Origin: Cephalotus follicularis
Lineage: Eukaryota; Streptophyta; Magnoliopsida; Oxalidales; Cephalotaceae
Assembly (NCBI GenBank): GCA_001972305.1
Contig: BDDD01000877.1
Coordinates: forward strand, 1-64,000
Direction of reading: 5' to 3'
Length of the DNA stretch: 64,000 bases
The notes under the pieces: model-generated
What the model was told of the DNA's origin: nothing
Database searches by the model: none
The model's input: the letters and a program-made list of their open reading frames with translations, nothing else
Translations under genes and position numbers: made by a program
Part shown: piece after piece, positions 256 through 51,232 of the stretch
Layout: each line of letters opens with the position of its first letter
How positions within the stretch are numbered: position 1 is the first letter of the stretch

Positions 256-632
256 GCAGACGATCAAAGCGTCGACTGACCTCTCCCAAGCGTCGACGGT
301 CATGTGACCGTTGGGGCTCCCAACTTTGAATTCTCTGCTTGAAGCGCAGACGTTCCATTGATTATGTCGACCGCCAGATAAAGCGTCGACCGCCAGCCTT
401 GAGCGTCGTCGCTTAGGCACATTTTAATTGCCAATTCCTCTCTGTACCAGACAGCAGACGCTTTGCACTAAGCGCATGCGTTTTGCGCCTTAAAGCGCAG
501 ACGCTTGAATTTGAGCGTCGACGCTTGGAGTGTTATTTCCAATTCTCCAAGCACTTCACCGGTAGACGCTTTGTTCTTGTCTCGACCGCCAGCCAAAGCG
601 CAGACGCTTTAATTGCAAGCGTCGGCGGTCTG
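256..632. repeat. Phased GTCGAC palindrome array in U3 of N
   Basis: Cores of the form GTCGAC, GCAGAC, CTCGAC or GTCGGC start at 256, 271, 292, 346, 366, 385, 405, 454, 474 (degenerate), 497, 517, 562, 581, 600 and 621. Most neighbours are 19-21 bp apart. Arms are often AAGC on the left and GCTT, GGTC or CGCCAG on the right. The spacer sequences differ from unit to unit, so the palindrome is better kept than the rest. Confidence 0.85.
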
Positions 633-753
633 AGCTGTTTCTGCATAATTTCTGCTGATATGTTTATCTTTTACCTTTCTTGCACATAAAGAAACTTTGT
701 CAAATACAAATATGTTATCATCAAAACATAGGATTGAGACATAAATGTCAACA

Positions 754-2028
754 GTTGATAACACCATTACCAACACAAACATTGTTCGAATATATAAAAC
801 ATCCAATGTCTTGGAATTTAAGCTCCAAGCCCAAGCCACATAAGTGACAAACACTTGTAATATTCCTTACAATAATCATAACAGAGTAGCATGGATCCAA
901 AGTCAATACATAACCATTACATAAATTAACATCACAAATTCCAACAGCTTGAGCAATGATCCTAGATCCATCACCAAGCCTCAAGTCCAGGTCTCCTGCT
1001 CCAAGCTTTCTAACTTTTCTTAGTCCCTGCAATGAATTGCAAAGGTTAGTTCCACATCCAGTATCTAATACCCATGAAGAACTACTATTCAAAGCTAGAT
1101 TAAGTTCAATCATGAACATACCTGATGTACTCGCACCGCACGGGTTATCAGCAGAGACAGTAGCAACAGCAACACGACAATCCTTTTTCCAGTGCCCGGT
1201 CTTACCGCACTAGAAACAAGCACCTTCAACAGCTAACTTCTTCATCCGATATTTGGCAACACTCCTGCTGGCTCCAAGCTTCCCCTTCTTCTTCTTTTGC
1301 TTCTTCTTACCCTTGCCTTTTGTATTGACAGGCATGAGCACGCCCTTCCCTTTACAGGAAGACGAGGCACTGGCTTTTCCTTAGGTAGACCTAGAAGAAG
1401 TAAGAAGTAGGGAGTGGGTCTTTGACTTCCCAGAGTCAAAATCGACCTCAGCCGTCCTCAACATACCAACCAGTTCAGATAGAGTTACCTCTATCTTGTT
1501 CATGTGAAAGTTCACAAAAAACTGTGAGAACGACTTAGGAAGGGACGTCAGAATAAGATCTATATATAGATCATGGTCCATGACAAACCTTAATTGAGCC
1601 AGCTGCTCAATCATGTCTATCATCTTCAATCCATGCTCATGGACTGAAGCTCCCTCTTGCATCTGAGCCTTAAAGAGTTTGCGAGATAAATTAAACCTTT
1701 GAGTCCTAGACTCAGCTCCATACATCTCCTGAAGGTGGAGTAGTATAGCAGATAAGGTCTCAATCTTTTCATTCTGACGCTAAAGCTCAGGTGTCATCCC
1801 AAGAAGGGCAAGACATCTAGCCTGCTCATCATCTTCTAGCCACTTGGCTAGTCGCTCACTCTCTTCGGGCGTCGGATCTTCACCCAGTGAAGGAGGCCCC
1901 TCAGTCATCACATAGGCCATTTCATTGGCCGTAAGGGCGATCTTGAGGTTGCGGTGCCAATCATTGAAGTTGGGCCCCTCAAGTTTGTTTGTCTGAAGTA
2001 TACGGGACATTGCATTTGATAAAGCCAT
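754..2028 (-). pseudogene. Copia gag-protease (element A), broken
   Basis: This is the first 425 codons of a Copia polyprotein, all in one frame from the ATG at 2028. Residues 1-230 are a Copia gag domain (the retrotransposon gag/UBN2 type), followed by a lysine-rich stretch (KKKQKKKKGK). A CCHC zinc knuckle (C-x2-C-x4-H-x4-C, containing GKTGHWKKDC) lies near residue 273, with its spacer residue turned into a stop. The aspartic protease follows, with WVLDTGCGTN and the catalytic D near residue 322. In-frame stops lie at 1780-1782, 1381-1383 and 1210-1212; each fits a CAG or CAA codon with one C-to-T change. Coding ends at the boundary with LTR N. Gag packages the RNA and the protease would process the polyprotein; this copy cannot make the full product. 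Confidence 0.85.
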
Positions 2029-3867
2029 TCTAGCAACCTAGATAAGGAAATATAAGCATGAGTTAGAATTTATTCCAATTTTAATATATGATAACCATAA
2101 CACTTGGTCTTTAGTGCTTATGGTTCCTCCCACTATTCTAATCGTATCCCATACCCCCATATGGAACTCGAGAAGTCTAACTTTCAAGTGGGGATTGGAA
2201 TCCATCGCAATCATATCATACCCTCAGCTAGGGCATGACAAACTATAATATATCCAATGGGTAGGCTTTCTTACCAATTTGTATCCAATACAAGATCCAA
2301 TCATAGTATTTGGCCTTAGATTCAATATGGCCTCAACTAGGGCATGACAAACCATCAGAATCTTGATAAGTCCAGTACCCACAATTTTCATTGGAATGCA
2401 CTAGTTTTAACACCCACACGTAGGCGTGTCCAAGTGCTAAAACATAGCCACCCTTTGCGGTGCCCAACACCGATGTTGACATAATATCCCCAAGTCATCA
2501 GCCTCAGCTAGGGCATGACAAACCAACATCCCAGGAACACTACTCAACGAAAATTGTGGAAGGCAACGGGGAACCACTCCATGGGTTCCTACGTTAAGAC
2601 TTATTATTCAAGCGAGGGAATTTGCGGTCTCAAATTTTAATTACCGAGCCATTAATTAATTCATTGGTTGTATTAGCCAATTCCAATTAATTACGGCTTA
2701 GCATGCAAGACGTATATCTTATGCACCTTGGACATATTTCTAAAATATGTCAATGGATTGGCAAGGACATTAGTAGTAGTAACTTGAGCCCAAAATCACT
2801 ACTAGGTCTTCCTAGGTGTAAAGATATAAAAAAAAAACTATTTATTACAACAATTACCATGCATACATGGCCTTCAAAAAGCTTGTAATCCATTTCTCCT
2901 TTCCTCCATCTTTCTTTACAAGGTCTTCTTCTACATAAAGAACTTTACATTTAAAAATACAAGGAAAAATTACAAAAGAAAGGAAAAATAAAGTATGCAC
3001 GCAGGCACCTTGTTACAGACCTTTAAAGTAATAAATAAATATATAAATCCATCCACACAAGAAAACCACAAACTAGGTCTATGTCCTTCTTAGGCCATCC
3101 ATTATGCATAAGACTTATATAATATCCAATATTATAAAACACAAATAAAACAAATGCCATAAGTAATAACCAATTATACAATTTAATTTAAGGATTGTTA
3201 ACTGATCAAACTCCCACTAAATCAAGCAATGATTTTTGATTTTCTAAGTGCCAAAAGGTATAAAATCCAATTTTATTAAAAAACAGTTTTTTTTTAATAA
3301 AGACGTCGACGCTTCCCAGAAGGCGTCGACGCTTCCCAGAAGGCGTCGACGCTTCCCAGAAGGCGTCGACGCATTTTATGAAAACTAATGAAAAAGGCGT
3401 CGATGCATAACACAAGCATCAATGCGTTTCCCAAGAACTATTGGAAAAAGGCGTCGATGTTTATCAATAACATCGACGCTTTTCCTAGAAATGATGAACA
3501 AGGCATCGACGTCTATCAAGAACGTCGACGCGTTTCCTGGAAAGATGAACAAGACATCGACGTCTATCAAGAACGTCGACGTCTATAGCCCCCTGGGCAG
3601 TTTCTGCATTTGGAAAAATGCATAAAATAATGGTCTAGACTTTGGCATTCCAGTATGGCAATCCAAACTGCACTATGCATGTTCAAAACATAATTCTAAA
3701 CACATTATATCAAATTCACCAGGTCAAAAACACAATGAAATCCAATTTCATGCAATTTTCACTAAGGCACTTTGAAAATCTAGTTTGATCATAAAACACA
3801 TCCATTAATTAAACCATTAATCAGTACATCATCTAAGCCATAAATTCAATCAAGGATGATGTGGGAC
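2029..3867 (-). other. Untranslated leader of element A
   Basis: This stretch lies between the primer binding site and gag and has no credible coding. It holds a palindrome array at 3301-3590. On the plus strand it also holds three scattered copies of a 20-bp phrase, CTCAGCTAGGGCATGACAAA, at about 2223, 2332 (one mismatch) and 2503. A leader of 1.8 kb is long for a Copia element. Confidence 0.65.
3301..3585. repeat. GTCGAC palindrome array in the leader of A
   Basis: Cores start at 3305, 3325, 3345, 3365, 3399, 3418, 3453, 3472, 3505, 3524, 3556 and 3575. The first units are near-perfect 20-bp tandem copies of GGCGTCGACGCTTCCCAGAA (3301-3370). The last four cores are two copies of a unit of about 51 bp holding two cores each, 19 bp apart. 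This array lies outside the LTR, downstream of the primer binding site, so it would be part of the genomic RNA. Confidence 0.9.
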
Positions 3868-3879
3868 GCTCTGATACCA
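3868..3879 (-). other. Primer binding site of A (initiator Met tRNA)
   Basis: The minus strand reads TGGTATCAGAGC, the usual plant primer binding site complementary to the 3' end of initiator methionine tRNA. One base separates it from the LTR end at 3881. It fixes both the strand and the LTR boundary of element A. Confidence 0.93.
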
Positions 3880-3880
3880 T

Positions 3881-6032
3881 TGATGGAAACAGATAAACCG
3901 AATCCGGTGCCAAAAACAGACTTAGGCATATAGGGTGTAGAACAAAACAAAATCATATAAAATGGCAGCGGAAGAACACCCAATTAAAAACAAAAGAGTC
4001 CATAAGGCATGTCCACAGACCACATGGATCACCACATCATCAACAAAATTGAATTGGTGTCACCATAGCAAACAATGGTGACACACAAGCATGGCAAGAA
4101 GAGAAGGACCGAGAGATATACCAGCGGGTGAAGGCTCCTTCTTTCTTTGCCACTGCACGCTTGAGTAGATTCCCTCTTTAATCTTCTCCAAGTCTCTAGA
4201 ACAACAAGCAATCCAACCAGCAATAACCAAGAACAAAGTGTATGAACTCTCTCTCTCTCTCTCACTAAGCTTAGAAAAGGTAAATTGATATTGACCAATG
4301 AAGTCAATAATCAATCCACCCTAGATAAGCTCTTGCTTGGTGTATCACAGATGAAGGGAACACACACTACTGAGAAGAATTCGAAGTCACATTGCCCAGC
4401 AAAAACTCTACTCCTCCTCTCACATTTTCTTCCTCCTTCTCTCTCCCACTCTCCCATTCACTTAAGATCATGGTCCTTACTCCTCGGGAGTCTATGGCCA
4501 TGATCCCCACGTTCCCATAACATGCAAGAGTGGGAGATGGCTGCTAGAGATGAGAGAGAAAATGTGCCCATGAAGTGAGCTCGTGCACAGGTTGCACGTT
4601 CTGCTCAAAGACGTCGACGCCTTCCAAAGGACATCGACGCTTATGCAAAGTGGTACCAAGAACATCGACTCTTTCTAAAAGACATCGACGCCTATAAAAA
4701 CGTTAAGCATCGACGTCTTTCTAAAAGACGTCGACGCTTTGTCTGGCCAGTGAAGTAATAAGAGTCTAACTCTTTTAGTGATCTCCTGTACCCTTCGAAT
4801 ATTGGTTAAGTAAGATGAAACATATGTGTTTCCACAAAATGCAAAATCCACATAACCGATATTTGACACCAAGACTTAATATGTCCAACATATTAAAGAA
4901 CTAATCATTATAAGGCAGGGACCCTTTAAAATCTTGGTTAAAACAAGAGGTGTTCATAAATTACCAAATACCCCTAGGGTCCGGTTTAGCCATTCTAAAT
5001 GGTCCTTGACCAATTTAAATGCTATTGGAATAATATCCAAATATTATCCAGATGGAAAAATTAATCTAATTAATTTTCCCATAATTTATTACACACCTCA
5101 TAAACCCTGGATTTTCTAAGTCGTCGGTTCACGTGTACTATAATCCCTTGTCATGCTTGGCCCCGATTGAGGTCTAGGGTAAGGATATGTGTTAACCCTA
5201 GATAATACTTCAATGGCTAAAATATCCGATCATTACTAGGACCTTTGGCAAACTCTCCGGAAATCTAATTTCCAGTCTACCTCAACCTTGGCCAAGGATT
5301 TCGTAAGTCCAAAGTATAATCAGACCATAATAGGGCCGATCACCTCCGCTCAGGTGTGACAATCCCATATTGCGCACTCACTTATATTCGTATAGATTCG
5401 ATCATACCCAAAGACCACCCGATTTCCAGCCCTGCCCAAAGACTGGGTAAGGTGGAGATCATAGCATAACCGTCTCCATACAATATAGAGTAGTCGCTCA
5501 GGTCTAAGGATCAGACGAGTTTGAGAACTCGCTAAGTGATGATCACTTATACACAACCGCAACAAGTAGGAGCCACTACTGACATGAGAATAGCGACTAT
5601 CCAAATAGTATCTCCTACGCGGGTCCTGTTCAGTGTATACGCTCCTAGCACGCACTCCGTATTTGCCCTAGTGTCCAACACAGATGGTAGTGAGAGAATC
5701 CATCCTCCAATTCCATGAGCAGGCAATATACGCGCAAGTCTATCCGGTTCACTAATGCCCACAAAGTGAACCTATGACTTGGAACTAATTCGACATAAGG
5801 AATAAGGTAACCAATCTCACAGCCTCCATGCTAGGCATCCAACCTTATGTCAGGGCATCACAAGTGTAAGCAGGTAAATAATAAACTACTTCAATTATGT
5901 GATAAAACACAAGTGATATAGCCATAATAAAATTAGCACGCATCATATATATAAGGAATAAGATTGTTTCATACAAGATAAGATATAATTTGACAACCCA
6001 TCTAATGGCTTGTCGGGTCACTCTATCTAACA
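3881..6032 (-). repeat. 5' LTR of element A (2152 bp)
   Basis: On the minus strand the LTR starts TGTTAGATAGAGTGACC (6032) and ends in TTTCCATCA (3881), next to the primer binding site. It contains a palindrome array at 4613-4735 and a CT run at about 4247-4263. No TATA box is obvious. Short open frames inside it (for example 5350-5655, minus) look like chance. Confidence 0.85.
4613..4735. repeat. GTCGAC palindrome array in LTR A
   Basis: Cores GTCGAC or ATCGAC start at 4613, 4633, 4664, 4684, 4709 and 4730, mostly 20-21 bp apart with one step of 25 and one of 31. Flanks are of the type AAAGAC on the left and GCTTT or GTCTTT on the right, the same style as in LTR E2. Confidence 0.85.
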
Positions 6033-8190
6033 ACTACTCCATAGACACCTCAATAGAATGGGGTGGCCGAATGTCTAAATCGGTCACTCATGGAAAAGGC
6101 GAGATGTACGCTAAGTTGGGCAGGCTTAGAGCCTGAGTTCTGGGCAGAAGCTATAGCCACAACATGTTATTTGAAGAACAGGTGAGTATCAAACACCATT
6201 TGAGGCATGGTTTGGGAGGAAGCCAAATCTGTCACATCTGCGAGTGTTTGGTTGTGAGGCATATGTCCATGTGCCTAATGAGAAAAGGACCAAGCTTGAC
6301 AGCAAATATGAAAAGTGTAAGTTTGTTGTCTACAAAGATGGTGTCAAGGGGTACAAGCTGGGGAATCTAAAGACCGGGATGACTACTATTAGCAGAGATG
6401 TTGTGTTTGGAGAAGCACAAAATCTCGAGGCAGTTCAGGAGGTTCTAGAACTGCTCAAGAAAATTCAGTTTGATGTGAAGCTAGAAGAACATGTGGAAAA
6501 CAGTACAAAGGTTCCACATGTAGCACTAGAAGATTCTGAGTCTGAGTCTGAGCATAATGATTAGGTTGATGACATTAGAGATGCTATTTCATATGAAGAT
6601 GTAGAGACTCCACTAGTGCTTAGAAGAGCGGCACGTGAGAGGAGGGTACTAGATCGATACTCTCCTAGTGCTTTGAGTGCATTGCATGCGTTGAATGTCA
6701 CTGGTGATGAACCGAGAAGTGTCAAAGAGGCAAGATCCATGGCTGATGCAAATCTATGGGAGCTTGCCATGATAGAGGAAATGCAATCACTGAATTGAAA
6801 TGAGACATGGGATCTTTGTAAACTACCTAAGAACCGTAAGGCTGTTGGGTGCAAATGTGTATTCAAACAGAAGTTAAATGCAGATGGAACAACTGAGAAA
6901 TACAAGGCAGGGCTAATGGCAAAGGGGTACTCACAGATTGAAGGAGTTGACTATGATGAGATATTTTTCCCAGTAGCAAAGCTGACCTTAATCAGGTTTG
7001 TTCTATCTGTGGCAGCTGTGCATAATCTAGAGATTGAACAACTAGATGTGAAGACAGCTTTCCTTCATGGAGATTTGGAGGAGGAGATTTACATGTAGCA
7101 ACCAAATGACTTTCAGGTCAAGGGAAAGGAAGATCTGGTTTGTAAATTGAAGAAGTCCCTGTATGGACTTAAGCAGTTACCAAGGATGTGGTACCAGAAG
7201 TTCAATACGTACACTCTACATTTTGGCTTTATTCGAAGCAATGCAAATCACTGTGTTTATGTGAAGAGGTCAGGTAACAACTTTGTAAATGTTGATGATA
7301 TGTTGTTAGTTGGCAATAACATGAAGATGATCAAGTCTGTGAAGGGTTTGTTGGCAAAACATTTTGATATGAAGGATCATGTGCCAACAAATTTTATTTT
7401 GGGTATGCAGATTAAAAGGGATCGTGAGAAGTGAAAATTGTGGCTAGGGCAGAAAAAGTATATTGAAGAGGTACTCAAGAAATTCAATATGATTGATTGC
7501 AATCCAGTTGGTACTCCCATGCCTTCGAGTACCAAGCTATCTGCAGAACAGTGTCCAAAAATAAAGGAAGAAATTGATGAGATGAGAGATGTGCCATATC
7601 CCAATGCTGTCGGTAGCCTAATGTATGCTATGGTTTGCACGAGACCAGATATTGCCCAAGCATTGGGAGTATTGAGCCGTTATATGTCAAATACAGGGAA
7701 AGAGCATTGGACTATAGTCAAGAGAGTCCTTAGGTATCTTCGTGGAACTTCAGATTATTCTTTGTGTTATGAGGGTATAGGATGTGGGGATAACCTTGTT
7801 GTAGTAGGCTTTGTTGATGCTGATTGGGGAGGAGATATTGATGGGATGAGGTCTACTAGTGGCTATGTCTTTACTTTGTATGGTGCTGCAGTTAGTTGGA
7901 TGAGTAAGAGACAAAGTGTTGTTGCTTTATCTTCTACTGAGGCGGAATACATGGCTTTGACATATGCTAGGAAAGAAGCTATGTGGCCTCATAGGTTGTG
8001 TGTGGAGCTTGGTTTCAGGCAGGATGCTGTGAAGATGAAATGTGATAGTCAAAGTGCAATTTACTTGGAGAAGAATCTGACGTTTCATTCACGTACGAAG
8101 CACATTGATATTCAATATCACTTCATCAGAGAAATGGTGGAAAAGAACATGATATGGTTAGAGAAAATAGATACGGCAGTGAACAGCTAG
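6033..8190 (+). pseudogene. Copia integrase-RT-RNase H (element B), broken
   Basis: The first codons match the conserved Copia integrase end, with NGVAE after two stop codons in the TPQ-type motif (6041-6055), then FWAEA. A frameshift near 6170-6190 leads into FGCEAYVHVP. Reverse transcriptase follows (AKGYSQIEGVDY, then QLDVKTAFLHGDLEEEIYM, then SLYGLKQ). The catalytic YVDD region reads NFVNVDDMLL, so a few residues before VDD appear lost. RNase H is clear at the end (DADWGGD, SGYVF, SWMSKRQ, ALSSTEAEYMA, then KHIDI). Further in-frame stops lie near 6562, 6796, 7096 and 7432. The enzymes would copy and integrate the element; this copy is dead. Confidence 0.9.
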
Positions 8191-12795: not shown

Positions 12796-13384
12796 TCTCA
12801 ATCCTTACAAGTTGAGCCTTGTATCTTACAATTTCATTTTTTTTTATTTTTTTTTTGAATTAATACCCATTTATACCCAACATGGGTTACATCATTTGGC
12901 GTTTGGACTACTGTTCCAAAGACTTCTCTTTTAAATAAGGATTGCATGAGATCTTCTTTCTTAGATTTAGGTTAGCAAGCCTAGCTTTCATTATAGTTGC
13001 AACTGCTTGTTGGAGAAGAAGTGAACAAAGGAATGCTTACTTTCTTTCTTTTTTTTATTGCACCATTCCATTGTAGCTAATCATTTCTTTGTTAACATTC
13101 TTTCCCACTTTGTGGTTCAGAATCTATATCAGAATTTGCGGTAATGCCCAATGCCACAACAAATGCAAACATATCATTAACCACAACACTTTTCTAATTC
13201 CATATTTGATAATTATGCACGTAACATATTTGATCATTAAACACGAATACAAGCGCGCGTTACTCAATTGTTGTCTTTTAAGAGAAATAAAAATTCTTTG
13301 AAAAGTTATTGATATATCGGATTATATTCAACAAGATTCATGCAAAAATTTGAAGCACATAATTTTTTATGCTAAAAGTAACGT
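12796..13384. other. Intergenic, AT-rich; left copy of a direct repeat
   Basis: No gene is seen. There are T runs near 12836-12860. Bases 13241-13382 match 14656-14790 in direct orientation, one copy on each side of LTR E1. Confidence 0.5.

Positions 13385-13450
<66 letters not shown>
13385..13450. repeat. TA/TG microsatellite
   Basis: A TA run is followed by a TG run with few interruptions. It touches the left edge of LTR E1. Confidence 0.95.
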
Positions 13451-13454
<4 letters not shown>

Positions 13455-14632: not shown

Positions 14633-14655
14633 TTATGTAACTTTCAATATATATA

Positions 14656-14790
14656 AACACAAATACAAGTGCAAGTTACTCGTTAATTGTCCATTTTGAG
14701 AAAATAAAAATACTTTGGTAAGTTATTGATATGTTGGATTATATGAAACAAAATTCATGCAGAAATCAGAAGTAATGATTATGCTAAAAT
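14656..14790. repeat. Right copy of a direct repeat flanking E1
   Basis: The sequence resembles 13241-13382 over about 135 bp, for example TACAAGTGCAAGTTACTC against TACAAGCGCGCGTTACTC. The two copies lie on either side of E1 in the same orientation. They may be LTRs of a very small element or a local duplication. Confidence 0.6.
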
Positions 14791-37500: not shown

Positions 37501-37630
37501 ATTACAGGCTAGGACCATTGAGGACTCGCATTACGGCTACAGGCTAAGACCATTTGAGAGCATTACGGGCTAGGACCATTAAGGACTATCATTACAGTTA
37601 CAGGCTAGGACCATTGAGGACTAGCATTGA
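37501..37630. repeat. Short tandem repeat in LTR L1
   Basis: GGCTAGGACCATTGAGGACT or a near copy begins at 37507, 37542, 37568 and 37603, at steps of 35, 26 and 35 bp. A further ATTATRRG-type phrase precedes it. Confidence 0.7.
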
Positions 37631-38339
37631 TGTGGTTAGTGTTATCTCAACCCCACTCGGCTACGACCCCGAAAAGGTAGGTAGTCGGTGACAGTACTAT
37701 CTGGGGTCGGAGGGGCAGAGTGGTACTCAGACCTTATGGATTGTTTGACCCATGGATGGTTATGGATTGACTTGTGGAGTGTCTACAAACCTATGGTCTT
37801 TTTTTATTAGGACTAGCTAAGTATGCCACCGCTTAAGGACGGTTGGTATACTAACACTGTCCACAATTGGCATTCATACATTTCACATGCCATGCATATA
37901 TCTGTATATACCTGTTCATTTCATTGCATATAGTATTACCTACATGGCCATGTTTGGCTGACCCATTCTCGAAATGGGCACAACATTTTAGGGACGAGTG
38001 CTGAGGATGCCTTGACGTGAGACGGGATGTTTTACAGAGCAGAATGTTTAGCAGTGTAGTTTCCTCTATCTACCTTTTTGTATAAGAAACATATTGTATT
38101 CGGTTGTGTTGACCTGCAGGCTTATGGCAATGCTTCAGTTATGTATGATGTATTGTGGATATCGTTGGGTTGATCTAATTAAGTATTTGTATGGTTGTTT
38201 TCGCATGCATGATTATGTATTAAAGTTTTAAATTTATATCGTATTTTGTATAGTATGCTATGAAGTATAAAGACAGATTGTGCGGACGGTATACCACGCG
38301 TCGGGCCATGCGGTTCACCTTGTGGTTTGGGGCGTGACA

Positions 38340-38930: not shown

Positions 38931-39127
38931 TGTAAGGCCCGGGAATTCCATACTTTGTAATAATTTAATTTCTGACGTAACCTTATCGTGGAATTAATGA
39001 GAATAATGAAATTCTTGACTTTGATGATGTTTTCCAAACTCTAATGATGTTGATTTTGGAGTAGGAATGTTAAAGAAATGTTAAAATGGCAAATTGAAGC
39101 AAAACGGCGCAGTTTTTGGTTAAAAGC

Positions 39128-39271
39128 GTCGACGCCTTTGGGAAAGCGTCGACGCCTACGCAGCAAAGATGCGCACGTAAACCATGCACATGCACGTCGA
39201 CGCCTGTTGATGACGTCGACACCCTTTAGGCAAAACGATATAAGCGTTGACGCCTCCATGTAAACGTCGAC
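39128..39271. repeat. First GTCGAC array in LTR L2
   Basis: Cores start at 39128, 39148, 39196, 39215, 39246 (GTTGAC) and 39266. Paired steps are 20, 19 and 20 bp. Arms are AAAGC and GCCTTTGG or GCCTACG. Confidence 0.87.
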
Positions 39272-40057
39272 GCTTTGCGTCGTGGTTCTGATATGCACAA
39301 ACAACAGATAGACGTGTCGCATGATGGTATGTTTGTACCATTTACTAGGCTTCTTGGTAGATGCTTTGGGGACGTTTTATGCATGCAATGTAACGTCTGC
39401 CTTGCCAGGACTGTAAAGGAACTGAAAGGAAGGGACATGTGAGTGTGCATGGACTGGGAAGAAGAAGAAGAATTTGACACCTGTAGCACCAGATTGCACA
39501 AGAAAGAGAGAGGAAGAAATGGTGGGTGCATGCAAGTGAAACAAAAACGAGAAATGGCATAAAGTCTGCTCTCTCACCTCACTCTTATCTATTACCGAAA
39601 TCCAGAGAGCCTAGAGACACTGTGAGTGACAAAGGAGAGCAGAAAATTAGCGAGAGGAAGCCGAACCACCATTGTTGAGCAAGGGAGAACTTGGAACTTG
39701 GACAACGACTGTGGAGTGAACCAGGGAGCTTTCAGGCTGAACCTGGGGACTCAAAGTGACTGATTGGATACTAAAAGAGGTGGACTTTCGGCTTCTAACT
39801 TGAGGCTAGAGGTAGGGGAAGCCATACTTGTATTTTGTGTTCAATATTTGTGTTTGTCCAGTGATGTTTATGCATCGATTGCATGGCCTGTTGAACTATT
39901 TTTGGTCACTGAAATTATGCCATGTTGTACTGGATGTGTAATATGATGTTGCATGTCGGTTTTCTGGGCTTTATACATGTTGGATTGCATGTTATTGTTG
40001 TGGAAATGTCACTGTTTGGTCACGTCGTTAGGAAGAAGACGACTGATGCTTGAAACC

Positions 40058-40244
40058 GTTGATGCCTTTGGTAAGCGTTGACGCTTGGTACTGTGAACTG
40101 CGTTTTGTTTACTGAATGCGTTTTAAACGTTGACGCCTACGGGAGGAGACATCGACGCCTAGGCACTGGAAAGCGCTGACGCTATGGGACTGCACGTCGA
40201 CACTTAAAGGACATAAGCGTCGATGCCTAAGTAAAAACGTCAAT
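40058..40244. repeat. Second GTCGAC array in LTR L2
   Basis: Cores start at 40058 (GTTGAT), 40077 (GTTGAC), 40129 (GTTGAC), 40151 (ATCGAC), 40175 (GCTGAC), 40196 (GTCGAC), 40219 (GTCGAT) and 40239 (GTCAAT). Steps are 19-24 bp apart from one of 52. Many cores have lost the central CG to TG or CA, as expected from decay of methylated cytosine. Confidence 0.8.
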
Positions 40245-41526
40245 GCTTTAAAGTCCTGTTTGGACAGTTTTTACGATTTTAACACCCGGCAACCCCGATT
40301 TCGCTTAAGATGCATTCGAGCATTTGTATGCATTGCATATGTACTGTTTACTGCCTGTTTATTGACTGTTTATAAATTGATTATGATTTCTAAGTATTGT
40401 TACATTAGAAATGCATGTATGAGTTGAAAACTACTATGTTGAGTACGAAAATATAAAATGAGTATTGTTATATTTTCGAACATACTGGGAAAGCAATTTC
40501 CACTACTGAAATGTTTTAAAGTATTTCTATCTATTGGAAATACATATTTCAAATGTTTACGACTTTCGAAAATAGTTTGAAATGAACTGCCTACTATTGA
40601 TCTAACAACCACTACTGTACTGTTTACTGTGACTATTCACTGTTCATGCTCTATGAATTTACTGTGTTTGTGCTTGAGTCACTAGTTATGTGGAGGGGAC
40701 TGCCAGCGTTGGCTAGTTGCAGGGTTGACCTAGGGGCCAGGAGTTAGCTGGGTAACTCACTGTATTGTATTGTTGGCTTGCTTGGTCACCTGGAGAAGGG
40801 ACCGAAGTGGGATTGCAACGTAGGACCAGGAGTTGGCGGCGTTGTACATACTGACTACCTCTTTGTGGTCCCTTTGTGGACTTACTGTATTGTTACTAGT
40901 CCTATCTGGACACTACTGTGTCTGTTGATGTAGCCCTGATCGGGTTACTACTGTACTGTTATTGCATACATATATTTTCATATATATGTCCCTACTGATA
41001 TTTTACTGTACCGTCAAACTTATATAATATATAAACTAGTATTTTTACTGTACAGCATCATCTATGCATACATTACACGACATACATTTAATGTTGATCC
41101 CAACTGCTCTTATGACTTATCCAAGTGAGGACAAATGCTAGCCCCCTACTTTACAAATTGATGCAGTGGACCGGCTTGGGAATCAGCATGGATGAAGTAC
41201 AAGTTTTTAATAATGTCCTTACTAGGGGTTATGTCCCTTTGGGTGTTGTGTACTGTATTTTTCGATTACTTGAGTTATGATGATACCGGATAATGTATTT
41301 TGGACCACGCTCCATTTTGTGGGCTTTTAACTATGACAGACATGTATTTGGTAGCGTGCAGTATGGGATGCACGTTACGTATATTTCAGCTTATGAATTT
41401 TAATGCTTCCGCCACTGATATCTTGTTTGAAAATTTTAAACTTTTACGGTATTTGCATGAGCTAAATCTTAAATGTTAATTGCCTTTACCACTTTTATGT
41501 GTGTTTATCGAAAGCGGGGTGTGACA

Positions 41527-41821: not shown

Positions 41822-42257
41822 TGTCACACCACTTTTTCAAATTCCATAATAGACAAGCATATAAGGTGATATCAGAAATAAGCATAAATAATATACCAGC
41901 ATTCCAATTAACAATTCATAAATAAATTTGCGGAAGCATTCGATAAGCCGGAATATAAATACAAGTCACCCGCACGCATCCCATACTACGTGCAGGCATA
42001 ATCCAACAGTTATCCTTAACAAAGGAAAATAAAACAGTATGGGATGTGATCCGTTCGATACATTACAATACATCATAAAGGAGATAACAACCTTAAGATG
42101 AAATAATAGAAGCTCTCCAAGCTTCAGCAGCGAACTCCGATCGTCTTCGCTTAATCTGAAATTGTAGGGGTTAGCCGTTGTCCTCACTTGGCTAAGTAGG
42201 AAGATAAAGCATGTAGATGAATCTATAAATGTAAATATGGATGACAGATAATGAAAT

Positions 42258-42292
<35 letters not shown>

Positions 42293-43029
42293 CAATAGGT
42301 ACGCAATCATGCCAAGTGGCCATAAACAATCCATATACAAGAATACCGCACAAGGGTACAATCAATTCATACAGTGGTTTTGGTGTCACATGTCGCTACC
42401 TCCTAGCTCTGACTGCGCACCACCTATCCATCACTCTACACTCCGAGATGATAGATAAGGTAACATTTACTACCGGCGTTGGCGGGTAGTTTAACAATTA
42501 AGATCTGCAATGCAGACAAGTTTGGGGGATACTCTGGCCAACTCCTGGCACCCAGGATCACCTCTGTAGTCAGTGACATCCTCCATCACTCGACTAACGG
42601 CAATAAGCATAGACAGTCAATTCAATCAATTCAGATCAATAATAATATCACATATATGTGTAATATGCAATATCAAAGTTGTTTTCTTTGGAAACATATA
42701 ACAATTCAATTATCGTACATATCATAGGAGGAAAACGATATCAATTCAATAGTGGTTCTCAATTGGAGAACAAAATAGTAACAGTGCCTCTATTAAGAGG
42801 AAAATAACAGTTGGTATGATAATAAAATTTTCTATTAGAAAACCGTTTACAAATCATTGTTTATGCTTTAAGCATTAGGTTGGTAAAATTCTTGAATATG
42901 TATTCATAACAGCAGAAATTTTACCCAATAACAGTAATAGTAGTTACAATATAACATATCAGGGATATTTGCAACCACAAACAGTTCAATCGATCAGTTT
43001 ACAAATTTCTACACCTATTGTTCTAAAGC

Positions 43030-43140
43030 GTCGACAGTTGCCTGGTAAGCGTCGACGGTCAATGGCTATGCGTCGACATTCTAAGCCTTAACTATGCTAT
43101 TTTTGTACCAAAGCGTCGACTGTCACGTGTAAGCGTCGAC
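43030..43140. repeat. GTCGAC array in 3' LTR of G, distal
   Basis: Cores start at 43030, 43051, 43072, 43115 and 43135, at steps of 21, 21, 43 and 20 bp. The 5' LTR has an extra unit here (see 49855-49990). Confidence 0.9.
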
Positions 43141-44252
43141 GCTTCTGGGTTTCATGCGAATTCCAGGAGCAGTTTCAAAACAGGGGATGCACAATTCAAT
43201 CTAAACTCAATCCAATTCGACATGCAATCAAGCATCAACCATCATAACATATTATACATGTTATATGTTCAAAAACATGTCAAGATCCCCTACCTCAATA
43301 GCTTATCCCAAGATCAATTTGGAATTGATCTTTCACTTTGAGTTGTCCAAGCTTTTCACCAACAAAGCTTCCAAATCCAGCAAGATTACTCTATATATCA
43401 TGCATGCATGTAGGTTTAGTCATTGACCAGTAGGTTTGTTAATTATCAGCTACAATTACTACTTCAACAGTAGCCTATTATCAATTCCTTAAGTCTTATC
43501 TTCCATTCTACCACTTTTACTTTGAACTCTATGTCAAGTATCTTCCAATTTCGGATTCATTGAACTTAACTTGTTCACAAAAGGTATATATATATATATA
43601 TATATATCAGTAAGTTTATGACAACAAACAACAATCCAAATTCGAGGTCATAATCTCCACTAAGCTTCATGTCCATAATTCTTACTCCTTTTTATTACCA
43701 TTTCAAATTCAATTCAGAAGATTGTTCTCCTTAACCATTTATCAGGAGATATTGAACATCCACCTAGATAAACTATCATCACATTAACAGTGAGTTCGAA
43801 TGGGAACTTACCAGGAGAAGTCCAAAGCTTCCAAGTCCCCTTTGCACTCTAAGCTTCAATTCCCACTTTGAGCTCACCAAATCCTCAAATGCAAACTCCA
43901 ATAACCTTTAGCAAGCTCTCTCTTCACTTAGTGTTTTCTAACACTCATCTCTCAAATCAACAGTTGATATAAAGTCTTTAGGAATCTTTAAACTCGCCAG
44001 AATCCTTAACTCCTCCTTCTCTCATCTCTTGTCTCTCTCACATGCATCTCTCTTTTCATTGTTTTTCCCTTAATTGCAGATTGTGCAGGTGGAGGAAGGC
44101 ATGCAAGGCCTTAATTCTGGGGTTAACAACAGCTGTCAGGGTCCCTTTTGCATTGCCAACACGTCTATGGACGCATGCCCCTGTCCCCATCATGTCAGCT
44201 CTGCCTTTCCTTCCAACTGACACCTATTTTTGCGCCAGAACACGACTAAAGC

Positions 44253-44389
44253 GTCGAAGGTTAACCTTGGGCGTCGGCAGTTATACGCCTCTAAGTGTCA
44301 ATGCTGGGCGTTTAAAGTTTGACGGTTGGCACCTTCGTATTGTGCACGTGTCCGGATTAAGCGTCGACGGTGTGTATCTAGGCGTCGGC
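44253..44389. repeat. GTCGAC array in 3' LTR of G, proximal
   Basis: Cores start at 44253 (GTCGAA), 44273 (GTCGGC), 44297 (GTCAAT), 44363 (GTCGAC) and 44384 (GTCGGC). It lies about 150-290 bp from the LTR start. Unit GGCGTCGGCGGTTTAAT resembles a unit of Copia LTR N. Confidence 0.85.
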
Positions 44390-44542
44390 GGTTTAATAAC
44401 AAAATTCAATTCTTTAATTTTCCATTTAAAATTCTATTCCAATCTCATCCATTAAGAAAAGTAATCCCACATAACATCTCAAAAGGTATATTTTATTCAT
44501 TATCGGATACGAAATACATGAATTGAAATTGCGGTTATTACA

Positions 44543-44556
44543 TTCCCCCCTCCTTA
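44543..44556 (-). other. Polypurine tract of G
   Basis: The minus strand reads TAAGGAGGGGGGAA directly before the TG of the 3' LTR. Confidence 0.9.
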
Positions 44557-44588
44557 AAGAAAATTCGTCCTCGAATTTAGCCCTTACA

Positions 44589-45985
44589 TTACATTCCGAA
44601 CAAGTGGGGAAATGTCTCCATCATTTCTTCCTCACGCTCCCACGTAGCTTTCTCCGTTCCGTGAAAACGCCACAACACTTTGACCATAGGAATGGTCTTG
44701 TTCCTCAGAACGTTTTCCATTCGATCCACAATCTTCGTCGGCCTCTCTTCATAAGTCAATCTAGGGTTGATGAATCCGGGGTCGTAGCTCAAAATGTGAG
44801 ATGGGTCGGGTACATATTTCCGTAACATGGAGACATGAAATACGTTATGCACGTCCGACAAACTAGGCGGTAGTGCAATCTGGTATGCTACCTCCCCCAC
44901 TCTCTCCAGTATCTCGTAAGGTCCAATATACCTTGGAGCCAACTTCCCTTTGAGGCCAAAACGGTGTATCCCCTTCGAAGGCGAGATCTTCAGGAAAACA
45001 TGATCCCCCTTCTTGAATTCTAGCTTCCTTCTCTTGCTATCGGCGTAACTCTTTTGCCGACTTTGTGCAGCTAGCAGTCTCTTCTTGATCATCTCCACTT
45101 TATCAGTGGTCTCTTGTACAAAGTCTGGTCCAAGCACTTGTCTCTCACCTACTTCGTCCCAGCAAATAGGTGATCTGCATTTCCTCCCGTATAAAGCTTC
45201 ATAGGGAGGCATTCCAATGTTGGTGTGAAAACTGTTGTTGTAAGAGAATTCAATCAATGCCAGATGATCCTCCCAACTCCCAGCAAAATCAATCATACAA
45301 GCCCGTAGCATATCCTCCAGAGTCTGAATCGTACGCTCGGACTGTCCGTCAGTCTGTGGGTGAAATGCAGTGCTAAAGTTCAAGGTTGTTCCCATAGCTG
45401 TTTGGAACTTCTTCCAGAACCTCGAAGTAAATGTAGCATCTCGGTCACAAACAATACTGACCGGCACCCCATGCAATCTCACTATCTCCCGGATATACAA
45501 TCGAGCAAGCTTCTCGATAGAATATGTCATATTCATCAGAAGGAAGTGAGCAGACTTAGTAAGCCTGTCCACTACTACCCACACTGCTTCATGCTGATTC
45601 CGTGACCTCGGTAATCCTGACACGAAGTCCATGGTCACATGCTCCCATTTCCATTCAACCACTAGTAGCGATTGTAGCAGTCCCGCAGGTTTCTGATGTC
45701 CAGCCTTCACTCTCTGACAGGTCAAACATCCTTCTACATATTCAGCAATTTCTTGTTTCATACCACTCCACCAGTAGTTCTTCTTCAGGTCGTGCCACAT
45801 CTTGGAACTTCCTGGGTGAACACTGTACTTCGATTTGTGAGCTTGTTGTAGTAGCTCATTCTTGATGCTCTCATCATTCGGAACACATATCCTCCCTCGG
45901 AACCTCAATATGCCATCAGTATGAATGGAGAACTCAGAATCCGGGTCTAGGTTCTCATGAATACTCCACAATTCAGAATCTCTAA
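44589..45985 (-). pseudogene. Integrase and chromodomain-like end (element G)
   Basis: This part is open to the stop at 44589. It has the integrase zinc-binding motif (AHKSKYSVHPG, then CLTC), the catalytic core with D in MDFVSGLPRS, D in VCDRDATFTSRFWKKF and E in FHPQTDGQSERTIQTLEDML, and the family phrase NNSFHTNIGMPPYEALYGRK. The end (IVDRMENVLRNKTIPMVKVL, then ATWEREEEMMETFPHLF) resembles the chromodomain-like tail of Tekay/Del elements, thought to guide insertion to certain chromatin. Its frame differs from that of the upstream gag-RT because of a deletion at about 45985; the domain itself looks undamaged. Confidence 0.92.
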
Positions 45986-48543
45986 AGCTTCGAAAATCCC
46001 TTGATGAATCTTCGATAATAGCCAGCCAATCCCAGGAAACTATGAACCTCCGTAACGTTCCTCGGTTGGGGCCAATCAACAATGCTCTCAATCTTCGAAG
46101 GATCCACTGACAATCCTTCACTCGACACAATGTGACCTAGGAACGTCACATGATCCAGCTAAAATTCGCACTTGCTGAATTTGGCGTATAACTGTTCCTT
46201 TCGCTGTGTCTGCAATACAATCCGCAAATGCTGCATGTGTTCCTCAATGTTCTTTAAATAGATCAGGATGTCATCTAAGAATATAACGACAAACTGGTCC
46301 AGGTAAGGTTGGAACACTTTGTTCATCAGACACATAAAGGTTACAGGTGCATTTGTCAAACCAAACGGCAATATCAGAAATTCGTAGTGCCCATATCTGG
46401 TTCGAAATGCGGTTTTCTCCACATTTTCTTCTCGGATCCTCAACTGATGATAACCTATTCTTAGGTCAAGTTTGGAGAATACAGTTGAGCCTTGCAATTG
46501 ATCAAACAACTCCTCAATATGCGGTAGAGGATACTTGTTCTTCACAGTCACATGATTTAGCAGCCTATAGTCGATGCATAGCCGCATCGATCCATCCTTC
46601 TTATTTACAAACAGAACCGGTGCTCCCCACGGTGATACACTTGGTCTGATAAAGCCCTTGTCAAGATAGTCTTGCAATTGAACTTTCAACTCTTTCAATT
46701 CGGCAAGAGCCATTCGGTATGGTGCTCTGGATATAGGAGCAGTTCCAGGTAACAACTCAATACTGAACTCTATGTCTCTCTCTGGTGGCAACGAAGTGAG
46801 TTCATCTGGAAACACATCAAGAAAATCACATACAATAGGCACTTGTTCAATACTGGGCGTACCTTTCATATGATCAATCACATACACCAAATAGCCCTCA
46901 CATCCTTGCTTGAGATATTTATGTGCTCGAGTATAGGAAATAATCGGAGCAGTAACATTTTTCTCTCCGATAAACTTGCACTCTGTCCCATCTTGCAGAT
47001 AAAATGTCATCATCGTGTTGTAGCAATCAACACAAGCATGATGAGCATACAGCCAGTCCATCCCCAAGATTAGATCAAAATCTCGGATAGGTAACACTAT
47101 CAGGTCAGTAGATAATTCAATCCCAGCTACCACGATCTCACAATCTCTCATAATAGTGCCGGATAGAAGATAAGTACCCGCAGGAGTACTCACCTCCAAA
47201 ACATATGGTAGTGTAGAAGTAATACCATGCAAATTGCGAGCAAATTCAGATGCAATGAATGAATGCGTCGCACCAGGGTCAATCAATACATGAGCTAATA
47301 TCCCCGATATGTAAATAGTACCTCCCACAACAGTAGTGGATTCCAGCACATCATCTTTAGATAAGGTGTAGACCCTACCTTTCACAATCCCCTTTCCGGT
47401 GTCTCTCCCCGGTTGAGCCGCCGTGACACTACCACTAGCACCAGCACTTCCTTGTTGGCCGCGTGTATGATCCCTCATCATCGGGCAACTACTCATCAAA
47501 TGATCCTGTGAACCACACCTCAAGCATTTCCCCATCTTCTTCCAACATTCTGTCTCATCGTGATTCGGGCGACCACAAAACGTACATCCACCTGCATTCT
47601 GTTGACTGTTTCGGCCAGGTGTCCTTGATCGTGTGCGTCGAGAACCTCCTTGACCTCGATTGTCAGATCTGGTTGACTTAGCAGGATTATTGCTTCCTTA
47701 CCCCTGTGACTGTATGGCCCTCGATTGATTAGTGCGAGTCTGTTCTGCCCTTCTCTCATTCGCATCAGCTTCAAGAATCATCGCTCTCTCAGCAACATCA
47801 ACAAAAGTGGTCAGCTGCAACAACAACAATTTAGACCTGATGTCTGGTCGAAGGCCTTTCAGGAACCTTCAAATCATTTTGGATTCACCCTCCACAAGGT
47901 AAGGTGTGTGCCTTGCCAGCTCCACATATCTGGTCTGGTACTGAGCTACCGTCATATCTCCTTGACGTAACTCCATCAACTCTGTCTCCCATCGATCACG
48001 CTCAATCTGTGGCACATAAGCATCAAGAAACTCGGACTGAAATCTGTCCCAAGTCCTGTCAAGTCCACAGGCTTCCCATTTTGCTTCAGTTCTTTCCCAC
48101 CAGTAAGTAGCCTCGCCCCATAGGCGGTACATAGCAAAACTGAGTTTCTGATCATCGGTACATTCTAGGGCAGCAAATATCTTCTCTAGATCTCTAATCC
48201 ACTGCTCGGCCGCAGTAGCATTCAGTTCACCATTGAAAGTCGGAGGATTCTGTCGTATGAACCGCTCCAAATCCCTGCCAAAACCACCAGCATGACAAGC
48301 ATCGGGTGCCTACTGATATGCCCGGTTAGCCTCGTACATTTGCCGAATTTGTTCCATGTTCGCTGCATTTTCTTGCATCTGCTGCCGGAAAAGATCAGCC
48401 AGGTGGTCAAAATTACTCCTCTCGTCATGCGCTGGTGGAACATTCACTCCTTCTTTCATTGGCGGAACATTTTCAGGTACTGGCGGAGCATTAATCCCCT
48501 CATCGGCTCTACGCCTTCCAATTCTTCCTCTTCGGAGATCCAT
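45986..48543 (-). pseudogene. Gypsy gag-protease-RT (element G), broken
   Basis: One frame from the ATG at 48543 holds gag (WIRDLEKIFAALECTDDQKL, ELRQGDMTVAQYQTRYVELA), two zinc knuckles ([14 protein letters not shown] and [14 protein letters not shown]), aspartic protease ([13 protein letters not shown]) and RT ([40 protein letters not shown], catalytic FLDDIL). In-frame stops lie at 48310-48312, 47869-47871, near 47700 and at 46159-46161. RT ends at [12 protein letters not shown] and is then joined directly to integrase-side coding. By comparison with H about 560 bp, the end of RT and all of RNase H, are missing. Confidence 0.92.
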
Positions 48544-48633
48544 TCAGTTTCCTATACGGAATGACATAATTATTAGGAAACAATTCACTTAATTTTCCGA
48601 GAAACTTATCCCAGCTTAGCATATATGGAATAT

Positions 48634-48645
48634 GCTCTGATACCA
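48634..48645 (-). other. Primer binding site of G
   Basis: The minus strand reads TGGTATCAGAGC, an exact match to the initiator methionine tRNA site, three bases from the 5' LTR. Confidence 0.95.
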
Positions 48646-49085
48646 TGCTGTCACACCCCGTTATTCAAATTCCATAATAGACAAGCATATAAGGTGATAT
48701 CAGAAATAAGCATAAATAATATTCCAGCATTCCAATTAACAATTCATAAATAAATTTGCGGAAGCATTCGATAAGCCGGAATATAAATACAAGTCACCCG
48801 CACGCATCCCATACTACGTGCAGGCATAATCCAATAGTTATCCTTAAAAAAGGAAAATACAACAGTACGGGATGTGATCCGTTCGATACATTACAATACA
48901 TCATAAAGGAGATAACAGCCTTAAGATGAAATAATAGAAGCTCTCCAAGCTTCAGCAGCGAACTCCGATCGTCTTCGCTTAATCTGGAATTGTAGGGGTT
49001 AGCCGTTGTCCTCACTTGGCTAAGCACGAAGATAAAGCATGTAGATGAATCTATAAATGTAAATATGCATGACAGATAATGAAAT

Positions 49086-49122
<37 letters not shown>

Positions 49123-49854
49123 CAATAGGTACGCAATCATGCCAAGTGGCCATAAAAAATCCATATGCAAGAATACCGCACAAGGGTACAATCAATTCAT
49201 ACAGTGGTTTGGGTGTCACATGTCGCTACCTCCTAGCTCCGACTGCGTACCACCTATCCATCACTCTACACTCCGAGATGATAGATAAGGTAACATTTAC
49301 TACCGACATTGGCAGGTAGTTTAACAATTAATATCTACAATGCAGACAAGTTTGGGGGGATACTCTGGCCAACTTCTGGCACCCAAGATCACCTCCGTAG
49401 TCAGTGACATCGTCCATCACTCGACTAACGGTAATAAGCATAGACACTCAATTCAATCAATTCAGATCAATAATAATATCACATATATGTGTAATATGCA
49501 ATATCAAAGTTGTTTTCTTTCGAAACATACAACAATTCAATTATCGTACTTCTCATAGGAGGAAAACGATATCAATTCAATAGTGGTTCTCAATTGGAGA
49601 ACAAAACAGTAACAGTGCCTCTATTAAGAGGAAAATAACAGTTGGTATGATAATAAGATTTTCTATTAGAAAACCATTTACAAATCATTGTTTATGCTTT
49701 AAGCATTAGGTTGGTAAAATTCTTCAATATGCATTCAAAACAGTAGAAATTTTACCCAATAACAGTAATAGTAGTTACAATATAACATATCAGGGATATT
49801 TGCAACCACAAACAGTTCAATCGATCAGTTTAAAATTTCTACACCTACTGTTCT

Positions 49855-49991
49855 AAAGCGTCGACAGTTGCCTGGTAAGCGTCGATGGTCAATGGCTAGG
49901 CATCAACACTAACGCTTCGGCGTCGACATTCTAAGCCTTAACTATGCTATTTTTGTACCAAAGCGTCGACTGTCACGTGTAAGCGTCGACG
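49855..49991. repeat. GTCGAC array in 5' LTR of G, distal
   Basis: It matches 43025-43145 of the 3' LTR but has an added unit, GGCATCAACACTAACGCTTC, between the second and third cores. Array length therefore differs between the two LTRs of one element. Confidence 0.9.
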
Positions 49992-51089
49992 CTTCTGGGT
50001 TTCATGCGAATTCCAGGAGCAGTTTCAAAAAAGGGGATGCACAATTCAATCTAAACTCAATCCAATTCGACATGCAATCAAGCATCAACCATCATAACAT
50101 ATTATACCTGTTATATGTTCAAAAACATGTCAAGATCCCCTACCTCAATAGCTTATTCCAAGATCAATTTGGAATTGATCTTTCACTTTGAGTTATCCAA
50201 GCTTTTCACCAACAAAGCTTCCAAATCCAGCAAGATTACTCTATATATCATGCATGCATGTAGGTTTAGTCATTGACCAGTAGGTTAGTTAATTATCAGC
50301 TACAATTACTACTTCAACAGTAGCCTATTATCAATTCCTTAAGTCTTATCTTCCATTCTACCACTTTTACTTTGAACTCTATGTCAAGTATCTTCCAATT
50401 TCGGATTCATTGAACTTAACTTGTTGACAGAAGGTATATATATATATCAGTAAGTTTATGACAACTAACAACAATCCGAATTAGAGGTCATAATCTCCAC
50501 TAAGCTTCATGTCCATAATTCTTACTCCTTTTTATCACCATTTCAAATTCAATTCAAAAGATTGTTATCCTTAACCATTTATCAGGAGATATTGAACATC
50601 CACCTAGATAAACTATCATCACATTAACAGTGAGTTCGAATGGGAACTTACCAGGAGAAGTCCAAAGCTTCCAAGTCCCCTTTGCACTCTAAGCTTTAAA
50701 TTCCCACTTTGAGCTCACCAAATCTTCAAATGCAAGCTCCAATAACCTTTAGCAAGCTCTCTCTTCACTTAGTGTTTTCTAACACTCATCTCTCAAATCA
50801 ACAGTTGATATAAAGTCTTTAGGAATCTTTAAACTCGCCAGAATCCTTAACTCCTCCTTCTCTCATTTCTTCTCTCTCTCACGTGCATCTCTCTTTTCAT
50901 TGTTTTTCCCTTAATTGAAGATTGTGCAGGTGGAGGAAGGCATGCAAGGCCTTAATTCTGGGGTTAACAACAGCTGTCAAGGTCCCTTTTGCATGGCCAA
51001 CACGTCTATGGACGCATGCCCCTGTCCCCATCATGTCAGCTCTGCCTTTCCTTCCAACTGACACCTATTTTTGTGCCAGAACATGACTA

Positions 51090-51232
51090 AAGCGTCGACG
51101 GTTAACCTTGGGCGTCGGCGGTTATACCCCTCTAAGTGTCAATGCTGGGCGTTTAAAGGTCGATGGTTGGCGCCTTCGTATTGTGCACGTGTCCGGATTA
51201 AGCGTCGACGGTGTGTATCTAGGCGTCGGCGA
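51090..51232. repeat. GTCGAC array in 5' LTR of G, proximal
   Basis: The same units as at 44253-44389, with small base differences (GCGTCGACGG here against GCGTCGAAGG there, and GGCGTCGGCGGTTATAC here). Confidence 0.85.

Follow-up and report, generated by a model that had tools for sequence, protein, structure and literature searches.

A TCGA-centred palindromic word arrayed in doublets in Copia and Gypsy long terminal repeats of Cephalotus follicularis

A 64,000-nucleotide stretch of the Cephalotus follicularis genome (contig BDDD01000877.1 of assembly GCA_001972305.1; hereafter the window, to which all counts refer) is rich in long terminal repeat (LTR) retrotransposons, and some of these, together with solo LTRs, carry arrays of one 14-bp word, AAGCGTCGACGCTT. 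The word is shared by Copia and Gypsy LTRs, is confined to LTRs and to the leader of one Copia element, and recurs at a preferred pair spacing with divergent spacers; the flanks do not align between the superfamilies. The pattern is real, and its Sirevirus-like part is of a known kind; what is new is the occurrence of the word in Gypsy LTRs and in a Copia element lacking two Sirevirus marks, and the building of the arrays from doublets. On balance, these arrays are probably LTR enhancers that would be read by a host DNA-binding dimer and have been held in parallel by separate lineages.

The elements concerned (Table 1) are N, A, E1 and E2 on the Copia side and L1, L2 and G on the Gypsy side. 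Element A, on the minus strand, is Copia by its gag (PF14223, at 1381-1779) and Pol_BBD (748-1209) domains, and G is Gypsy by gag, protease, reverse transcriptase and integrase domains at 44589-48309, the integrase core scoring below the Pfam cut-off and its zinc-binding and SH3_Tf2-1 parts above it. N, E1 and E2 are classed as Sirevirus-like, and L1 and L2 as Gypsy, from features of the LTRs and from partial alignments, not from coding domains.

The shorter core RTCGAC, by which a first-pass annotation had described the clusters, occurs 139 times when both strands are counted (100 shuffles: 26.25 ± 6.45), and the reported clusters are thus real. For the full word, scored against 100 dinucleotide shuffles in 1-kb blocks, 46 sites match at least 11 of 14 positions (0.78 expected; shuffle maximum 3) and 88 match at least 10 (10.06 expected; maximum 17), and 18 neighbouring pairs of the stricter sites stand 18-23 bp apart, where the shuffles predict 0. 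All 46 stricter sites lie in LTRs or in the leader of A: N has 6, the A LTR (taken here as 3882-5361) 3, the A leader 8, E2 1, L1 5, L2 9, and the 3' and 5' LTRs of G (G3 and G5) 7 each. There are none in E1, H5 or H3 and none in the other 42.8 kb (D1-D3 included), which bears out, for the window, the predicted confinement. As G3 and G5 are copies of the same LTR, 7 of these sites duplicate others, which leaves 39 that are non-redundant. At the looser threshold, the array LTRs and the leader account for 77 of the 88 sites; H has 2, and the other 42.8 kb has 9, about 10 being expected by chance window-wide. The consensus itself is fully palindromic, single copies mostly imperfectly so, and the information spans ~14 bp with some arm positions weaker. 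Generic palindromes (at least 6 of 7 pairs, some G+C) are also in excess, with 98 against 57.75 (maximum 74 in 20 mononucleotide shuffles), and TCGA is their commonest centre (22 of 98), so that the word itself, rather than palindromes at large, is the signal. Rfam, at gathering scores, gave 0 matches in the window. The earlier list of array-bearing LTRs stands for N, A and its leader, E2, L1, L2 and G; E1 has two cores only, none matching at 10 or more positions. The core starts given with that list are correct when counted from TCGA (E2) or from RTCGAC (G, L1); the one at 36781 is a GTCAAC variant.

That a single motif occurs in both kinds of LTR, as had been proposed, is upheld by cross-training. 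Symmetrised matrices were used, at a threshold giving 1.3 matches per window in 20 block shuffles (Copia matrix). The Copia matrix (43 units) found 61 matches, including 4 in L1, 9 in L2, 4 in G3 and 6 in G5, where ~0.05 would be expected per LTR; the others lie in N (4), A (17), E2 (16) and D1 (1), with 0 elsewhere. The Gypsy matrix (35 units) found 71, with 8 in N, 17 in A and 8 in E2 on the Copia side, followed by L1 (7), L2 (13), G3 (9), G5 (8) and D1 (1), and again 0 elsewhere; neither matrix had a match in H, D2, D3 or E1.

One account of the origin of this sharing, which would be compatible with an enhancer role, is that the array itself passed from family to family through recombination or template switching, and so is shared by descent and not by convergence. 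Consistent with such exchange, which had also been raised in the first-pass annotation, the A leader aligns with L2 over 44 bp at 84%, the A LTR-L1 alignment was equalled on repeat by 1 of 200 spacer shuffles, the other 199 being poorer, and in 7 further of the 24 cross-lineage array pairs just 1-7 of 20 shuffles were as good. However, the A LTR-L1 pair was the only one of the 24 to beat all 20 shuffles, and in 16 at least 12 of the 20 were as good. Moreover, inter-superfamily alignments (one strand, E ≤ 0.01) span only 34-84 bp and end within ~15 bp of the arrays, whereas likeness within lineages (E2-N, E1-E2, L2-G, L1-H, D1-D2-D3) extends further. Since cross-lineage alignments are mostly no better than spacer-shuffled ones, these comparisons establish a shared word and not a shared array; exchange has little support, and we regard it as decidedly unlikely.

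Spacing was analyzed for units matching at least 9 of 14 positions in nine arrays with hand-set limits (68 gaps), in comparison with 5000 random placements keeping unit number and array extent fixed. Gaps of 19-22 bp account for 36 of the 68 (random mean 11.4, maximum 23) and those of 20-21 bp for 29 (mean 5.6, maximum 14); the distances from TCGA to TCGA are most frequent at 19-21 bp (5, 12 and 15 pairs), and the mean gap within the 18-24 bp class is 20.8 bp. The distance peak reported earlier is therefore present in the window, and the accompanying idea of helical phasing is supported for the spacing of pairs, at about two turns, and not for the whole array. Short gaps also succeed each other less often than expected (14 times, against 21.9 in permuted arrays, with 0 of 5000 as low), including when the A leader (12 against 18.1, p 0.0014) or both the A leader and E2 (7 against 11.6, p 0.004) are left out, and this alternation is robust over 8 settings (p 0.0007 to 0.042), so that the unit looks like a doublet. 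The spacers, as had been noted, differ: those of successive short gaps have a mean identity of 0.49 (12 pairs), and 9 of the 12 pairs are at or below 0.5. Both pairs with identical spacers are in the A leader, where part of the array, made of 20-bp units, is a tandem duplication (3340-3530 repeats 3394-3581 at 78%). These identical units, together with ~104-bp repeats that make part of the E2 array a tandem duplication, could indicate neutral duplication of a short, functionless unit. That account leaves the same word in unrelated families unexplained and fits poorly with neighbouring units that are 74% identical on average (40 pairs) between such divergent spacers; already disfavoured, it can be given very little credence.

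The consensus has three CpGs per unit, and over 90 units CG is present at 172 of 270 places and TG or CA at 54. The RTCGAC core described earlier is partly a product of this decay, as ATCGAC fits CpG decay of GTCGAC. At the outer CpGs, the inner base has changed 33 times and the outer base 9 times (p 0.0003), or 29 and 9 times over the 68 distinct units (p 0.002). The decay is lopsided in A (11 to 0) and in E2 (12 to 0; together 23 inner, 0 outer), as if the outer C and G were constrained in these two elements. Within single units, the two arms match at 389 of 630 pairs, against 393.2 ± 6.6 after re-dealing arms within each array; this absence of own-arm matching speaks against selection on single hairpins and would be expected of independent protein half-sites. 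In N and E2, the better-kept arm is the right one in 13 units and the left one in 7, with 5 ties.

These properties also bear on the possibility that the palindromes act as RNA, with neighbouring units forming hairpins in the transcript that would feed small RNAs or packaging. Sense-strand folding z-scores (from only 15 or 30 shuffles each, with 5 control stretches) range from -2.9 to -10.4 in eight of the nine arrays, with +0.3 in the remaining one, against -0.2 to -3.7 in the controls. The A leader array is located downstream of the primer binding site, and hence in transcribed RNA, and structured parts of Sirevirus LTRs are described as having an excess of small RNAs in the accessible text of PMC10760457. 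Any palindrome array folds, however, and three of the nine do not surpass the strongest control, at -3.7 (G mid, -2.9; L2b, -3.7; G first, +0.3); there is no own-arm compensation, the E2 and N arrays are upstream of the TATA box, and hairpins need no common Copia-Gypsy sequence. An RNA role thus appears unlikely, although it deserves some weight. The strands differ in folding, E2 being more stable in antisense (-263.8 against -162.5 kcal/mol) and the A LTR in sense (-68.8 against -43.9 kcal/mol), as would follow from G-U pairing once decay has been one-sided.

An array had also been reported in "D", a label left undefined; if D2 is taken, its region 31700-31900 has no main-type unit at 8 or more positions and has instead a TCGA-centred palindrome of its own, in an LTR that seems to begin at 32676. 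This palindrome has 3 sites at 15 or more of 18 positions, against 0.03 in shuffles (the consensus being derived from the same sites), and 26 in the window at 12 or more, against 26.7 expected. The related D1 carries five weak main-type units at 8 or more positions, two of them at 10, and its LTR aligns to D2 beside the palindrome site, which suggests, on little data, that the arms were turned over at one LTR position. Different palindromes at a similar place in related LTRs would also resemble an arms race, as might be expected if the CpG-rich words served chromatin, as sites for a methyl-sensitive reader, a demethylase or a silencer, with repression as the outcome. The CA or TG found at 54 of the 270 CpG places is consistent with this, in that the arrays may have been methylated, but the chromatin role requires the same binding step as an enhancer, and the features of the arrays do not tell repression from activation; we consider it quite unlikely.

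The first-pass annotation was mistaken in suggesting that no such family had been described: palindromic repeated motifs, clustered in the upper half of the LTR shortly ahead of the TATA box, are on record for 13 Sirevirus elements (Bousios et al., 2010; PMC2829016). The core of those motifs is CGG-CCG, except in Tnd-1, and 2 of the 13 are TCGA-centred (Vitis, CGGTCGACCG; Tnd-1, ACAATCGATTGT); in the accessible parts of that paper, the motifs are presented as Sirevirus-specific and absent from classic Ty1/copia elements, and Gypsy is named only in other contexts (PMC2829016). The arrays here resemble them in being palindromic, in their many copies per LTR, CpG richness, divergent flanks and a core common between families, and, for E2 and N, in the layout upstream of the TATA box. 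They differ in having the consensus core CGTCGACG in place of CGG-CCG (the exception, Tnd-1, is likewise without it), in extending to Gypsy LTRs and to the Copia element A, which lacks two Sirevirus marks, and in the doublet spacing, which those parts of the paper do not describe (PMC2829016). Set beside the Sirevirus figure of at least 8 copies per element, units at 8 or more of 14 positions, and those among them with a TCGA-like centre, number 21 and 18 in E2, 18 and 18 in the A LTR plus leader, 14 and 13 in L2, 12 and 11 in L1, 12 and 11 in G (one array taken per LTR copy), and 13 and 7 in N, whose two counts lie on either side of the figure; E1, with 3 units at 9 or more, falls short of it. 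With its Gypsy domains, G is no Sirevirus. Where the Sirevirus junction reads CA/ATTGG, A reads CA-ATGG-TATCAGAGC, and a poly-C pattern search found none in A or in E1 and one in E2.

Maize Sirevirus LTR palindromes are said, in papers citing work of Bousios from 2016, to be linked to RNA hairpins and small RNAs. Palindrome-rich LTR regions of maize Sireviruses are marked in the accessible text of PMC5311732, and the arrays here are similar (Bousios 2016, via PMC10760457 and PMC5311732) as palindromic cis-regions of an LTR. The accessible text of a 2025 host-factor review (PMC12786077) contains none of the strings "palindrom", "CBF" and "DREB," and "palindrom" occurs 0 times in that of PMC3601003 and PMC9663577. 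Among the matches listed in literature searches, none reports, in its title or the opening of its abstract, one palindrome array common to Copia and Gypsy (most subscription papers being beyond reach), and strings of the motif word gave no plant retrotransposon among the titles listed.

A candidate host-factor site in an LTR, coupling the element to a host pathway, has a parallel in ONSEN (ATCOPIA78), whose LTR contains an element bound by HSFA2 (PMC3907296). Binding was demonstrated there, whereas for the arrays here it is predicted; furthermore, the heat response element of ONSEN consists of GAA boxes, and a palindrome array is not described in the accessible part of that work (PMC3907296). 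That parallel aside, a candidate motif is RYCGAC, listed in PLACE as CBFHV (PMC7570135). It fits, on one strand, 64 of the 90 units (5 of 13 in N and 3 of 8 in L2b; the form RCCGAC is in 4 of 90) and leaves the conserved arms unexplained. CBFHV, attributed to barley CBF factors, may mark a candidate host-factor site, as a lead only. Half-site readings tried over the same 90 units were GACGCTT (29 units), GACGYYT (53), GTCGAC (34), TGACG (6), ACGT (21), the W-box (1) and GCGTNNACGC (9), none of which explains all arrays. The facing half-sites GACGCTT-N7-AAGCGTC may resemble the NLP nitrate element; a literature search on this point found no paper.

Under the favoured explanation, the arrays would be enhancer-type cis-regulatory parts of the LTRs, and each unit, approximately AARCGTCGACGYTT, would be the site for a host sequence-specific DNA-binding protein acting as a dimer. 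On one helix face, a doublet would be formed by two units spaced 19-22 bp from each other, with several doublets per LTR; Copia and Gypsy lineages would use one host factor, with sites kept or built independently, and Sireviruses may do likewise with their own palindromes. Protein binding, dimerization, activation and the identity of the factor are inferred here. This explanation draws on the cross-training, the confinement, the pair spacing and the doublets, and on the lopsided CpG decay in A and E2 together with the similar position of the array start, 120-200 bp from the LTR start in N, E2, L2, G and, with 4890 as its LTR start, A. It also draws on the distance in E2 and N from array end to TATA box (95-96 bp; the N box was spotted by eye), which is near the Sirevirus layout (PMC2829016). 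L2 and G have two arrays each, at LTR offsets of ~155-340 and ~1130-1520, and L1 has one, at ~720-990.

Several observations weigh against an enhancer array of this kind. Searching with a simple TATA pattern gave no match in N, A, L2 or G and none that would fit in L1. Helical phase is absent from the 21 gaps of 25-60 bp (R = 0.11 at 10.5 bp). The decay bias comes solely from A and E2, the counts being 10 to 9 in the five Gypsy arrays and 0 to 0 in N. In Gypsy units the right arm is the better conserved (21 to 7, 7 ties), in A units the left (11 to 4, 3 ties), so that the fit to a symmetric dimer site is inexact. RNA folding is strong in several arrays, six of the nine exceeding every control. 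The cross-training was not fully blind, as the training units of both lineages were chosen with a common consensus. Lastly, a 230-bp alignment of L2 with G covers the first array, which these two may have inherited from a common source, and independence is therefore argued only between lineages.

A broader proposal, which we hold only tentatively, is that one host factor was captured in parallel, via the doublet-spaced palindrome, by at least three LTR lineages (Sirevirus-like Copia, another Copia, and chromovirus-like Gypsy), and that related LTRs then exchange their palindrome arms, the TCGA centre and the spacing being retained, as in D1 and D2. The label chromovirus-like is based on H, a relative of G, whose chromodomain match scores 23.9 bits against a Pfam cut-off of 25.1. 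If the proposal is true, much of the retrotransposon load of this plant would share a regulatory code; many retrotransposons would come under control at one point, through a factor serving both Copia and Gypsy, for which array DNA could be used as bait. Palindromic LTR arrays would then reach beyond Sireviruses, through parallel capture of one cis-element.

The LTR of N starts with TGTTGAC and contains TTTTGATGATAACAT, is 71% alike to the start of E2 over 161 bp, and has a TATAAAA at 171, spotted by eye; the TTTTGATGATAACA start, used in assigning N, E1 and E2, is presumably a Sirevirus mark. E2 has a poly-C stretch near its 3' end and TATAAAAG at 16024. In A, we take TGGTATCAGAGC to be the primer binding site, and the 5' end of the 5' LTR is uncertain, lying by eye at TGTTGG (4890) or at TGTCAC (5361). 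The 3' end of L1 is 64% alike to H over 134 bp, and L2 shares similar stretches with G. Relatives of the G integrase piece and of one Copia piece were sought in viral contigs, and none was found there.

Table 1. Array-bearing elements, their arrays and the D2 palindrome in the window.
Feature	Position	Strand	Remarks
N, LTR	1-753	-	Truncated by window edge; inserted in element A; Sirevirus-like start
N, array	267-630	-	13 units at >=8/14; 7 if TCGA-like centre required
A, leader array	3301-3584	-	Between primer binding site and gag; 12 units at >=8/14
A, candidate primer binding site	3868-3879	-	TGGTATCAGAGC
A, 5' LTR	3882-4890	-	3' end set by primer binding site
A, LTR array	4609-4739	-	6 units
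E1, Sirevirus-like LTR	13451-14620	+	Ends approximate; two weak units (9/14) at 13798-13832
E2, solo LTR	15184-16569	+	Target duplication GTTAA
E2, array	15302-15930	+	11 to 21 units by threshold
D2, TCGA-centred palindrome	31729-31886	-	AAGTTAGTCGACTAACTT type; 5 sites, two pairs 20 bp apart
L1, solo LTR	36017-38339	+	Gypsy type from its ends; target duplication GGGTA
L1, array	36734-37013	+	11-12 units; right arm GACGCTT better kept
L2, solo LTR	38931-41526	+	Gypsy type from its ends; target duplication CATTC
L2, first array	39124-39275	+	6 units; LTR offset ~200-340
L2, second array	40054-40248	+	7-8 units; LTR offset ~1130-1310
G, Gypsy element with both LTRs	41822-51383	-	Target duplication CTTGT
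G, 3' LTR (G3)	41822-44542	-	
G, 3' LTR second array	43026-43144	-	
G, 3' LTR first array	44249-44393	-	
G, 5' LTR (G5)	48649-51383	-	95.7% identical to 3' LTR
G, 5' LTR second array	49856-49994	-	Copy of 43026-43144
G, 5' LTR first array	51090-51234	-	Copy of 44249-44393

The second Gypsy element, H (54678-64000), has gag, protease, RNase H and integrase pieces and the sub-cut-off chromodomain match; its LTRs are without an array in the scans at 11 or more of 14 positions and with the matrices, and provide a natural negative control. In the adjoining DNA, a 1.8-kb Gypsy gag-protease region related to H is present in inverted orientation (52866-54684 against 57643-59461, 87% identity). Outside the E1 LTR, imperfect direct repeats distinct from the LTRs flank it (13238-13387 and 14654-14798, 78%). 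Additionally, the plus strand at 6175-8187 has a Copia integrase SH3 piece and reverse transcriptase-like pieces (by eye), of which the one at 7435-8190 has no Pfam match, and an RVT_1 reverse transcriptase piece of long interspersed nuclear element or Gypsy type lies at 23590-24243. Two further features are a hAT-like RNase-H fold piece (PF14372) on the minus strand at 20696-21118, and an inverted repeat at 18494-18832 and 19288-19641, with arms of ~340-355 bp at 85.6% identity, which is perhaps a non-autonomous DNA transposon.

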